Below, piece after piece: positions 2,118 through 6,634 of a DNA stretch of 24,567 bases (position 1 is the first letter of the stretch; each line of letters starts with the position of its first letter). The DNA is from a virus. The stretch spans positions 1-24,567 of IMG/VR virus record IMGVR_UViG_3300045999_001790; one strand, 5' to 3'. A program made the position numbers and the translations under genes. Below the pieces are notes generated by a model. That model was not told where the DNA came from. It saw only the letters and a list, made by a program, of their open reading frames with translations, and searched no databases.

Positions 2118-2543
2118 ATGCCAAGACCTGCACCCCCATGCAACAAGGGCCGCAAAATCATCAAGGTGAATGCGCTGATGATGGCCCAGTTAATGAAGCA
2201 CCTGATGGAAGGCGATTACACGTGCCAGGAGCTGGCCGAGGAAACGGGCCTGCACTACGTGACTGTACTGCACTACACCCGCGAGATGTACAGAGAAGGA
2301 GTGCTGCACATCTGCAAATGGGACAAGCGGCCAGAATCAAAAGATCCAATAAGAATTTACAAGTTTGGATCAAAGCCTGATGCCAAGAAAAAAATAATGA
2401 CAGATGTGGAAAAATCTCAACGGTACCGACAGAAAAAGAAACAACTAAAGTTGGTGCAAATGATGGCAGGAGACTCTACGCTGTTCACCCGGAAACCGAA
2501 AGCACAGCAGACACAGCAGACACAACAAAAGGAAGCAGCATGA
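2118..2543 (+). CDS. Winged-helix-like DNA-binding protein
   Basis: The product is 141 aa. Residues 31-75 read as a helix-turn-helix: LMKHLMEGDYTCQELAEETG, then LHYVTVLHYTREMYREGVLHICKWD, which is typical of MarR/ArsR-like or replication-type winged helices with a beta wing. The rest is Lys-rich, with EKSQRYRQKKKQLK and a Gln/Thr repeat tail (QQTQQTQQ). The ATG at 2118 follows GAGGATCAC with a 7-bp gap after the previous stop, the only clean intergenic gap in the first 5 kb. It may regulate early genes or act in replication initiation; the sequence does not decide. The stop overlaps the next ATG. Confidence 0.82.
   Translation: MPRPAPPCNKGRKIIKVNALMMAQLMKHLMEGDYTCQELAEETGLHYVTVLHYTREMYREGVLHICKWDKRPESKDPIRIYKFGSKPDAKKKIMTDVEKSQRYRQKKKQLKLVQMMAGDSTLFTRKPKAQQTQQTQQKEAA
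2504..2530 (+). repeat. Period-9 direct repeat in coding sequence
   Basis: ACAGCAGAC occurs twice in tandem, followed by a degenerate third copy (ACAACAAAA). It encodes the QQTQQTQQ tail of the winged-helix-like protein. It is likely a replication-slippage product. Confidence 0.8.
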
Positions 2544-2731
2544 AGATTAAACTGGCACCCCCAAAAATGGATGCATTTGATGAGGATGACATCGCCGTTT
2601 TTACGATGGAACTAGTAGATGAGTCTGCCGCCAGCATTGAGATTAGGGCCTGGATCGATAGAGACAATTGGCCAGTGATTCAACAGGCTGTGGCGGATGC
2701 TTTGGAAATGATGTTTCCGGGGGATGCATGA
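2540..2731 (+). CDS. Small acidic phage protein
   Basis: The product is 63 aa of unknown function. It is acidic (FDEDDIAVFTMELVDE) and looks like a small alpha/beta fold: a strand IAVFTMELV, a strand SIEIRAWI, then a helix PVIQQAVADALEMMF. The ATG is preceded by AAAGGAAGCAGC (good ribosome-binding site) and overlaps the preceding stop. Its stop overlaps the methyltransferase start (ATGA at 2728-2731). Confidence 0.82.
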   Translation: MKIKLAPPKMDAFDEDDIAVFTMELVDESAASIEIRAWIDRDNWPVIQQAVADALEMMFPGDA

Positions 2732-3405
2732 ATGAGCTGGCTCTTTTCGCGGGTGCTGGTGGAGGACTCCTTGCGTCAAAAGTTCTCGGGTGGAGAACTG
2801 TCTGCGCCGTTGAGTTGGATCCCTATTGCAGAAGCATACTTATTAGGAGACAAAACGAAAGATTACTTGATCCTTTCCCAATATGGGATGATGTTAGAAC
2901 ATTTGACGGTAAACCCTGGATTTCATCCATTGATATTGTCACTGGAGGGTTTCCTTGCCAAGCATTCAGCAATGCGGCAGCAGGCAAAAATAATGCCGAT
3001 GATCTTTGGCCGGAAATGTTCCGAATCGTGGCAGATGTCTCTCCCAAATTTGTCTTTGCAGAAAACGTATCTAAAAATGCAATTGACAAAGCATGTAACG
3101 ACCTTGAAACGTTGGGTTACAAAACCAAAGCAATATCCCTTAGCGCGTCAGACATGGGTGCAGACCACGTACGGGAGCGCCATTGGTTACTTGCACACCC
3201 CGACAACAAAAGCGAATTATTGCGCGAACTCGATGCAGAAGTGGCCGTCGGCCAGGAATTTCAAAATTGTGTTTGGAAAACCTTCTCCGGAAATCCACGA
3301 ATGGCTGATGGGCTGGCCCATAGGATGGAGCGATTTAAAGCCACTGGAAACGGACAAGTTCCAGCGGTGGCTGCAACAGCATGGAGGTTGCTAAATGCTC
3401 CGTGA
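2728..3405 (+). CDS. DNA cytosine-5 methyltransferase (Dcm-like, phage type)
   Basis: The product is 225 aa and transfers a methyl group from S-adenosylmethionine to C5 of cytosine in DNA. Visible motifs are: I, LFAGAGGG (6-13); II, acidic VELD (28-31); IV, GGFPCQAFS (73-81) with catalytic Cys77; VI, AENV (111-114); VIII, VRERHW (148-153); and IX/X, RMERFKATGNGQVPAVAA (199-216). It is shorter than cellular Dcm (about 330-470 aa), with a very small target-recognition region between motifs VIII and IX. No partner endonuclease is nearby, so it is probably an orphan methylase protecting phage DNA from host restriction. I chose the ATG at 2728; the earlier start at 2668 lies inside the previous gene. 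It overlaps the helicase by 11 bp. The last third is also a convincing reading frame in the +1 frame (separate entry). Confidence 0.95.
   Translation: MNELALFAGAGGGLLASKVLGWRTVCAVELDPYCRSILIRRQNERLLDPFPIWDDVRTFDGKPWISSIDIVTGGFPCQAFSNAAAGKNNADDLWPEMFRIVADVSPKFVFAENVSKNAIDKACNDLETLGYKTKAISLSASDMGADHVRERHWLLAHPDNKSELLRELDAEVAVGQEFQNCVWKTFSGNPRMADGLAHRMERFKATGNGQVPAVAATAWRLLNAP
3191..3394 (+). other. Overlapping +1 frame encoding an alternative methylase C-terminus
   Basis: Within the methyltransferase gene the +1 frame is open from 2732 to the TAA at 3392-3394. From 3191 it reads LHTPTTKANY, then SMQKWPSARNF, FGKPSPEIHEWLMGWPIGW, DLKPLETDKFQRWLQQHGGC. This PTPT...EWLMGWPIGW ending is one I recognise as the C-terminus of other phage cytosine methylases, so it does not look like a chance shadow. 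Frame A over the same bases gives the canonical motif IX/X. The +1 product could arise from a +1 (or -2) ribosomal frameshift after RERHW, or from independent initiation at TTG 3191, which has GGGAG 13 bases upstream (weak). Its stop abuts the helicase ATG (TAAATG). Whether it is expressed is not known from the sequence. Confidence 0.55.
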
Positions 3406-4984
3406 CTACCAGCAGCGCACAATCGACCATCTTTATCAATGGTTCAGAAACGGCCACGAGGGCAATCCATGCTTGGTGCTGCCGACTGGCTCAGGAAAGA
3501 GCCACATCGTCGCGGCTCTGTGCAAGGATGCCCTGCAGAACTGGCCAGAAACCCGGGTTCTGATGCTCACTCATGTGAAAGAGCTTATTGAGCAAAACGC
3601 GGAGAAAATGAGACTCCATTGGCCAGGGGCGCCAATGGGTATTTATAGCGCAAGCATTGGACGGAGGCAACTCGGGGAGCCGATCACTTTTGCAGGCATT
3701 CAGTCGGTGAGGGACAAAGCCCATCTGATTGGTCACGTTGATCTGGTCATTATTGATGAGTGCCATTTGGTTGGCCACAAAGACGAGGGCGGTTATCGAC
3801 GTCTGTTGGCCGACCTGAAAGACATCAATTCCAATCTTCGTGTGGTTGGCCTTACCGCTACTCCCTGGAGGCTAGGACACGGTTTAATCACTGATGCGCC
3901 CGCGATCTTTTCCGATCTAATCGAGCCGGTATCAATTGATGAGCTGGTCAAACGCAAGTTTCTCGCTCCTCTTCGATCCAAGGTAACTGCTGAGCGCCTG
4001 GACGTATCAGGCGTTCGAAAGCGTGGCGGGGAGTACATTGAAAGCGAGCTGCAGGCCGCCGTGGACAACGAGGCGCAAAACCGAGCGATTGTGCAAGAAG
4101 TCATTGCTCGAGCTGGAGAACGCAAAGCTTGGCTGTTCTTCTGTGCCGGTGTTCAACACGCTCAGAATGTTCGTGACGTTCTGAAAGGCTTCGGAATTGT
4201 TGCGGAGTGTGTGACAGGGGCTACGACAAAAGCGGAGCGTGAACGCATTTTGACGCTCTACAAAGCTGGCGAGATCAGGGCATTGACTAACGCGAATGTG
4301 CTAACGACTGGCTTTGATTACCCCGATATTGATCTGGTTGCGATGCTCAGGCCAACCATGTCACCTAGTCTTTATGTGCAGATGGCAGGCCGAGGGATGC
4401 GGCCCAAGAGTCATGCCGATCATTGCTTGGTGCTGGACTTCGCTGGAGTTGTAGCAACACATGGGCCGATCACAGCCGTCCAGCCGCCAAAGAAGGCCGG
4501 GTCAGGCAATGGTGAGGCTCCGGTGAAAGTGTGCGAAGCGTGTCATGAGTTGTGCCCCATTTCCGCTAGGAAGTGTCCAGCCTGTGGCGCTCCATTCCCA
4601 GAGCCAGAAAAAAAGGCCCTGACGCTGCACATTGACGATATCATGGGCATTGAGGGCACGAAGATGTCTGTAAGGTCTTGGATCTGGCGAAAGCACACAA
4701 GCAAGGCCTCTGGCAAAGAAATGTTCGCAGTTACGTATTACGGTGATCTGAGCGATCCTCCGGTTACCGAGTATCTGACAGTGACGCATGACGGATATGC
4801 GGGCCAGAAAGCAGTCAAAACTCTGCTAGACATGGCCAACAAATCAAGAGCCATCATCAACAGTGATGACCTTGAGGAAACCGCCAAGATCATGACAAAA
4901 GCTACGCCGCCGAGCGTGGTGGAGTACCGCAAGGAAGGCAAGTACAGCCGAATCATCAACCGGGAGTGGAGGATAAATGAGTGA
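3395..4984 (+). CDS. DECH-box superfamily 2 helicase with zinc ribbon
   Basis: The product is 529 aa, an ATP-dependent SF2 helicase of the SSL2/COG1061 type, presumably for phage DNA replication or recombination. Motif Q-like DYQQ (4-7); Walker A LPTGSGKS (29-36); motif Ia LMLTHVKEL; motif II DECH (121-124); motif III LTATP (153-157); motif V ALTNANVLTTGFD (296-308); motif VI QMAGRGMRP (329-337). A four-Cys zinc ribbon follows (C380-x2-C383 ... C394-x2-C397), then a C-terminal domain with WIWRKHTSKASGKEMFAVTYYG that is common in phage versions of this helicase. The ATG overlaps the methylase end by 11 bp. The stop overlaps the next gene by 8 bp. Confidence 0.95.
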   Translation: MLRDYQQRTIDHLYQWFRNGHEGNPCLVLPTGSGKSHIVAALCKDALQNWPETRVLMLTHVKELIEQNAEKMRLHWPGAPMGIYSASIGRRQLGEPITFAGIQSVRDKAHLIGHVDLVIIDECHLVGHKDEGGYRRLLADLKDINSNLRVVGLTATPWRLGHGLITDAPAIFSDLIEPVSIDELVKRKFLAPLRSKVTAERLDVSGVRKRGGEYIESELQAAVDNEAQNRAIVQEVIARAGERKAWLFFCAGVQHAQNVRDVLKGFGIVAECVTGATTKAERERILTLYKAGEIRALTNANVLTTGFDYPDIDLVAMLRPTMSPSLYVQMAGRGMRPKSHADHCLVLDFAGVVATHGPITAVQPPKKAGSGNGEAPVKVCEACHELCPISARKCPACGAPFPEPEKKALTLHIDDIMGIEGTKMSVRSWIWRKHTSKASGKEMFAVTYYGDLSDPPVTEYLTVTHDGYAGQKAVKTLLDMANKSRAIINSDDLEETAKIMTKATPPSVVEYRKEGKYSRIINREWRINE

Positions 4985-6477: not shown

Positions 6478-6634
6478 CGGTAACTGTGATCAAGGTCGTC
6501 AATGCGATTGCGTTCCAGATTTCGAATGGAACGAACCCACCGAGATTGAAGGCATCGCATCAATGGCGGCAAGCCTGTTGATGATTGTTCTAATCATCGC
6601 CAGCATCACCGGTATCGTGATGCTTTACGTATAA
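6470..6634 (+). CDS. Cys-rich one-TM phage peptide
   Basis: The product is 54 aa: N-terminal MCNGNCDQGRQCDC (Cys at 2, 6, 12 and 14), an acidic linker, then one hydrophobic segment IASMAASLLMIVLIIASITGIVM (given in two parts: IASMAASLLM, IVLIIASITGIVM) to the C-terminus. The CxGxCxQGRxCDC start is frequent in small phage membrane proteins of Proteobacteria. An ATG also occurs one codon earlier (6467). The Cys head with a single membrane span resembles an anchored metal-binding peptide; function unknown. Its last 45 bases overlap the convergent endolysin gene, so it is the last gene of the early operon. Confidence 0.75.
   Translation: MCNGNCDQGRQCDCVPDFEWNEPTEIEGIASMAASLLMIVLIIASITGIVMLYV

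Follow-up and report, generated by a model that had tools for sequence, protein, structure and literature searches.

Two open reading frames on the same DNA

Does a single stretch of about 680 bases in a viral genome encode two proteins, and if so, how are these two proteins related? The question is raised by the IMG/VR virus record IMGVR_UViG_3300045999_001790, of which we analysed positions 1 to 24,567 (24,567 nucleotides, called the window hereafter). Between positions 6590 and 24270 the window has mostly minus-strand genes, among them those for an endolysin, a tail-spike-like protein, a transglycosylase-like protein and a major head protein, which points to a tailed phage. The stretch of about 680 bases carries two frames on the same strand, which we call A and B, B being at +1 of A. 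Frame A begins at ATG 2728, stops at TGA 3403-3405 and has the C-terminal end RMERFKATGNGQVPAVAATAWRLLNAP. Frame B begins at ATG 2732 and stops at TAA 3392-3394, and its peptide includes HTPTTKANY...EWLMGWPIGW...KFQRWLQQHGGC. The initial annotation had described B as open across the whole gene, with its TAA adjoining the ATG of a helicase; this is what we find, at these coordinates and with zero internal stops. The features of the region are as follows.

2540..2731, plus strand: small upstream open reading frame, in the frame of B; its TGA adjoins the ATG of B and overlaps the ATG of A
2719..2724, plus strand: GGGGGA, Shine-Dalgarno-like, 7 nt 5' of the ATG of B and 3 nt 5' of that of A
2728..2734, plus strand: dual start ATGAATG (ATG of A at 2728; TGA at 2729-2731, ending the frame of B upstream; ATG of B at 2732)
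2728..3405, plus strand: frame A gene, C5-cytosine methylase, proposed alpha subunit, 225 aa (PF00145, AlphaFold/Foldseek, alignment)
2728..3207, plus strand: residues 1-160 of A, catalytic domain, predicted folded (pLDDT mostly about 90)
3208..3354, plus strand: residues 161-209 of A, predicted disordered (pLDDT 37-44)
3340..3396, plus strand: motif X region of A, KATGNGQVPAVAATAWRLL (pLDDT about 86 at residues 210-223; A again more conserved)
2732..3394, plus strand: frame B gene, proposed beta subunit, 220 aa (openness, shuffle test, third-base constraint, PHROG matches)
3179..3382, plus strand: residues 150-217 of B, TRD-like segment and putative motif IX (pLDDT 87-92 at residues 161-200; alignment)
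3284..3331, plus strand: putative motif IX block of B, SPEIHEWLMGWPIGWS (profile match to the WillSterrel methylase)
3395..4984, plus strand: helicase gene (ResIII/Helicase_C), its ATG immediately 3' of the TAA of B

A longer form of A, starting from TTG 2668, is unlikely, as the relatives start at the position of the ATGAATG. Translational coupling is possible through the small upstream reading frame which ends at the ATG of B.

Frame B is open and constrained in the relatives

We gathered 355 loci by similarity to either frame, from IMG/VR, from GTDB genomes and from phage records. Both frames are present in all 355 and B lies at +1 in 354 of them, it being understood that loci selected by similarity are mutually related, so that the counts and statistics given here are concordant without being independent. 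In the exception (L252, from a Gallionella MAG), both frames jump together at about profile position 85-90, which is consistent with a frameshift or a sequencing error. Within this similarity-chosen sample we found no locus with B but without A, and none with an A of this clade but without B.

The initial annotation had suggested that stop codons be looked for in homologues and that synonymous sites be compared. In 261 non-redundant full-length loci, B is nearly always open and mid-gene stops are similarly rare in B and in A, while the +2 frame of the same loci contains a mean of 15.1 stops, with at least 7 in every locus. There are six loci in which B is intact and A interrupted (L203, L205, L213, L233, L267 and L352); A is intact where B has a mid-gene stop in L037, or early stops in L108, L115, L265 and L272. 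These loci with one interrupted frame could reflect decay or sequencing errors. In 83 relatives we then shuffled A, gene by gene, among its synonymous codons: B remained open in 0.36% of the trials on average, with a mean of 4.9 stops, and it is open in 82 of the 83 real genes.

As for the synonymous sites, an excess of constraint was found both in the fourfold sites of A and as a lowered dS. At 40-50% amino-acid identity, the fourfold-site identity of A is 0.46, versus 0.29 predicted from codon usage, and it peaks at 0.89 where B reads EWLMGWP. The similarity above that of shuffled sequences reaches a z of 6.2 for frame B and of 3.8 for frame +2. At matched dN, the dS of A is 0.71 versus 1.33 for neighbouring genes (p 0.003).

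Frame B has a start of its own

For the start we took 205 relatives whose B sequences are less than 85% alike. In 204 of them B starts 4 nt past the start of A. The second codon of A, an Asn, is AAT in 197 relatives and AAC in none, whereas elsewhere in those genes AAC is the commoner Asn codon (1010 versus 690 for AAT). An upstream stop in the frame of B is found at the start in 196 of the 205, and 75 have an upstream open reading frame of at least 30 aa. The start codon of A is variable (ATG in 131, GTG in 38, TTG in 18) and absent from this position in 18 loci, where A starts 3 to 21 codons upstream, many of these extensions having a GGAG before the ATG of B. A Shine-Dalgarno-like motif precedes the ATG of B in 158 of 203 relatives, versus a background of 18%.

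More remote relatives come from mycophages, from cyanophage S-H1, from phages of Porphyromonas and Bacteroides and from plasmids of Bacteroides and the archaeon Methanomethylovorans; in these the match to B starts only around motif IV of A, as would be the case for an internally started gene. Openness, shuffles, synonymous constraint and the invariant ATG thus strongly support one of the readings offered by the initial annotation, that of a true overlapping gene. We conclude that B is a conserved overlapping gene under selection, which can be started separately, and that the two frames are real, unusually clean overlapping genes.

Frame A is a methylase without a recognisable TRD

Searching with both peptides, as the initial annotation had proposed, led to separate families for each. 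Frame A matches Pfam PF00145 (E 2.5e-26) over residues 4-161 only and phrog_363 (E 1.5e-52); its AlphaFold model matches M.HhaI in Foldseek (E 2.7e-13). FAGAGGG, GGFPCQ, AEN and RxR are conserved in the alignment of A, which thus has motifs I, IV (with the catalytic Cys), VI and VIII of the C5 methylases. It also has motif X, the GNGQVP region being conserved and predicted helical. A alone has no recognisable target recognition domain (TRD) or motif IX: the PF00145 match stops at motif VIII, and in the AlphaFold model most of residues 1-160 are confident, residues 161-209 are disordered and a helix follows at 210-223. The ordinary C5 methylases of the same genomes have a full PF00145 match in a single frame, have about as many +1 stops as expected from shuffles, and gave no significant match to B.

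Frame B carries a probable motif IX

On its own, B matches three PHROG families: phrog_26627 (E 2.6e-12), phrog_35493 (E 7.4e-12) and phrog_1008, "DNA methyltransferase" (E 1.7e-7). These three families appear to be made of frame-B proteins, and phrog_1008 bears its label although the catalytic motifs would be absent from such proteins. With B alone, tblastn found 25 phage records, 15 of them at 80% or more of the length of B, the full-length matches being in phages of Pseudomonas, Klebsiella, Vibrio and Salmonella. No credible match to B was found in Pfam, NCBIfam or the PDB, and Foldseek found nothing with its model. The mean pLDDT of this AlphaFold model is 55: about two thirds of B, including roughly the first 145 residues, which are disordered, have no predicted fold, and the sole confident fold is in the C-terminal part (pLDDT 87-92 at residues 161-200).

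The profile of this C-terminal part matches the methylase of mycophage WillSterrel at ARLNPAFPEWMMGWPTGWV (E 2.1e-9 in a search of 53 proteins), in frame with the motif X of that enzyme and just 5' of it. On M.HhaI and dcm-type enzymes the same profile also falls at motif IX, in weak and non-significant matches, the link of B to classical enzymes being significant only via this one mycophage methylase. Very probably, then, B contains a motif IX block, with a TRD-like segment ahead of it. The alignments also show two subtypes, a short one with AENVS in A and HTPTTKANY and SMQKWP in B, and a long one with VENSPML in A and, in B, a longer TRD with PTP repeats and LNPxWVEWLMGWP; the difference in length hits both frames together.

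Conservation alternates between the frames

A is better conserved than B over codons 1-140. From codon 156 to 205 the order is reversed, with 0.84, 0.65 and 0.73 for B versus 0.60, 0.41 and 0.57 for A, and over the motif X codons, 206-222, A leads once more. The disordered segment of A and the folded segment of B share the same DNA. This means that constraint and predicted order switch between the frames along the DNA. The initial annotation had read both endings as C-termini of methylases. They are not rival endings: that of A is motif X, that of B would be a TRD-like segment with motif IX, and the two look complementary.

A proposed split methylase and its alternatives

We consider it likely that A and B encode two subunits of one split C5 methylase, each with its own start: a catalytic alpha subunit and a beta subunit for recognition. 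The alpha subunit would contribute the SAM-binding motif I, motif IV (GGFPCQ) with the catalytic Cys, motif VI (ENV), motif VIII (RxR) and motif X. The beta subunit, started at its own ATG 4 nt downstream, would begin with a long stretch that is probably flexible and end in a fold in which the TRD-like segment would provide DNA recognition and motif IX a scaffold; alpha and beta would join into one phage-encoded C5 methylase. The translation of B, its binding to A, the methylation activity and the anti-restriction role are what we infer. The role of the enzyme is likely the protection of phage DNA from restriction, since we saw no restriction enzyme encoded beside it, either in this window or in those annotated gene neighbourhoods that we consulted.

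Could A be the sole gene, and B owe its openness to codon bias, to composition or to phylogenetic inertia? Long open shadow frames are known in G+C-rich genes and our relatives are mutually related. Against this stand the shuffles within each gene, the same frame relation across the 355 loci, the control methylases, whose stops are about as many as shuffling predicts, the exclusive use of AAT at Asn-2 and the higher conservation of B over codons 156-205, so that chance or codon bias is close to excluded as the cause of B and this reading has hardly any credit with us. B might instead be a real overlapping gene with another role, for instance a regulator or a separate anti-restriction protein, which does not join A: its residues 1-145 have no recognised fold and belong to no family of known function. 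Yet its folded part matches the motif IX region of a methylase while A has none, and both frames occur together at all 355 loci, which makes this reading unlikely.

The initial annotation had also envisaged a programmed +1 shift after RERHW, giving two isoforms. In its fuller form, translation would start in A, shift by +1 near RERHWLLAH into the TRD and motif IX of B and perhaps shift back for motif X, giving a single chain. The constraint does pass from A to B and back to A, which is just the pattern that a doubly shifted chain would require, and the nucleotides CTTGCATAC at the switch show good conservation. However, these conserved bases follow from the GYLHTPT of B, two shifts are required to have motifs IX and X together, and the ordinary enzymes of the same genomes are single-frame. 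Such shifts also leave unexplained the invariant ATG of B with its Shine-Dalgarno-like sequence, the openness and constraint of B upstream of codon 150 and its conserved tail past codon 205. No slippery site of the run type was seen at codons 152-157. We therefore disfavour this reading, isoforms included, and give it a rather small probability. The last proposal, also raised by the initial annotation, is an ancestral frame swap, in which a compensating pair of frameshifts took the TRD/motif IX block out of A and left B as a remnant. WillSterrel, with a PEWMMGWPTGWV block in frame A just 5' of motif X and a truncated B-like stretch at +1, agrees with it and illustrates that a motif IX block is possible in either frame. 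But B is not decaying, its openness, start codon and residues being kept across very divergent hosts, and a family split in two by such a swap is not what we observe, all 355 loci carrying both frames. A swap may account for the origin of B; as the reason for its present maintenance it is very improbable. Two subunits, started separately, are thus the reading which we retain.

Comparison with known systems

Lee, Kam and Shaw are said to have described in 1995 a small chain of EcoHK31I read from another frame within the large gene. B, at +1 inside A, is laid out like this. M.EcoHK31I (specificity YGGCCR) is a C5 methylase made of two polypeptides, the large chain having motifs I-VIII and X and also the predicted TRD, and the small chain motif IX (PMC3404938). 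Likewise, A resembles a large chain with motifs I-VIII and X and without IX, and motif IX would lie in a smaller second polypeptide, B, itself an inferred product (WillSterrel match, E 2.1e-9). There are differences: here A is disordered at the position of the TRD and the folded TRD-like part is in B; B overlaps essentially all of A, with a start only 4 nt later; and no restriction enzyme is apparent beside the gene, whereas M.EcoHK31I belongs to a restriction-modification system. Given the different place of the TRD, M.EcoHK31I is better taken as a functional analogy than as a fellow member of one family. We found no further report of an overlap in the YGGCCR literature.

M.AquI (CYCGRG) is also a C5 methylase spread over two polypeptides (PMC3404938), but it is cut within the variable region and has both IX and X in the small chain, whereas here X is in A and only IX would be in B; a split of this type is ruled out by the motif X of A. 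WillSterrel gp71 is a single chain with the same catalytic domain and a PTPT-rich region and PEWMMGWPTGWV block related to the C-terminus of B; unlike here, its TRD, IX and X are in one frame, with a truncated B-like stretch at +1. This methylase (L362:1434-2609) is possibly an intermediate between fused and overlapping forms. The ShiLan domain is a hidden HNH endonuclease lying out of frame inside methylase genes of actinophages (PMC11855218). B differs in being no insertion, in covering the whole gene at +1 and in having no HNH match, and so does not fit a hidden HNH of this type. Paracoccus phage Pyei1_p05, whose specificity is presumed relaxed (PMC6536676, PMC3925955), was considered as a characterised relative and rejected, with a weak local match to A (E 1e-7) and no significant match to B. 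No description of this overlap was found in the literature searched, which is weak evidence, as that search covered few subscription papers and the original EcoHK31I paper lay outside it.

Distribution and annotation of the pair

The pair is found in assemblies titled Pseudomonas, Acinetobacter, Nitrosomonas, Opitutae, Lentisphaeria, Nitrospiria, Anaerolineales, Phycisphaerae, Patescibacteria and others, where it probably belongs mostly to prophages, and also in plasmid records of Leptospira and Acinetobacter. A DNA relative is present in 4 of 5,426 E. coli genomes. B is the annotated frame in Vibrio phage 1.236.O, Pseudomonas phage phPA-G and Stenotrophomonas phage SOVA965 (L112, L113 and L108), A in Salmonella phage S9-5, Pseudomonas phages PS-1 and Marin and others (L107, L109-L111): in GenBank, related phages carry opposite-frame annotations of the same gene, one frame having been chosen per record. 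In mycophages Llama, Seabastian, Jinglebell, Modragons and Ochi17, the methylase match comes in two pieces under two annotated genes, which suggests a frameshift. One more locus (L377, in Pseudomonas genome G008) encodes a methylase of 283 aa with a weak match to B (score 13) and a +1 frame open over 265 codons, a length reached in 0 of 300 shuffles; it is perhaps a more distant overlapping family.

To our knowledge, long same-strand overlaps with functionally linked products are rare, and we see in this locus an extreme and widely distributed form of the overlapping split methylase, itself a rare arrangement. On balance we lean towards one enzyme made of two obligately co-evolving halves, written in two frames from about the start codon to the stop codon (more than 200 codons) with alternating constraint, an arrangement which would be old, widespread in phages and prophages of many phyla, and often reduced by annotation to one subunit. 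If this is true, a large family of phage methylases is annotated one subunit short, an enzyme cloned as a codon-optimised frame A would be inactive or lack specificity, and frame B is where the specificity of the family should be looked for. The family would then offer hundreds of natural cases for the study of two proteins sharing one DNA.
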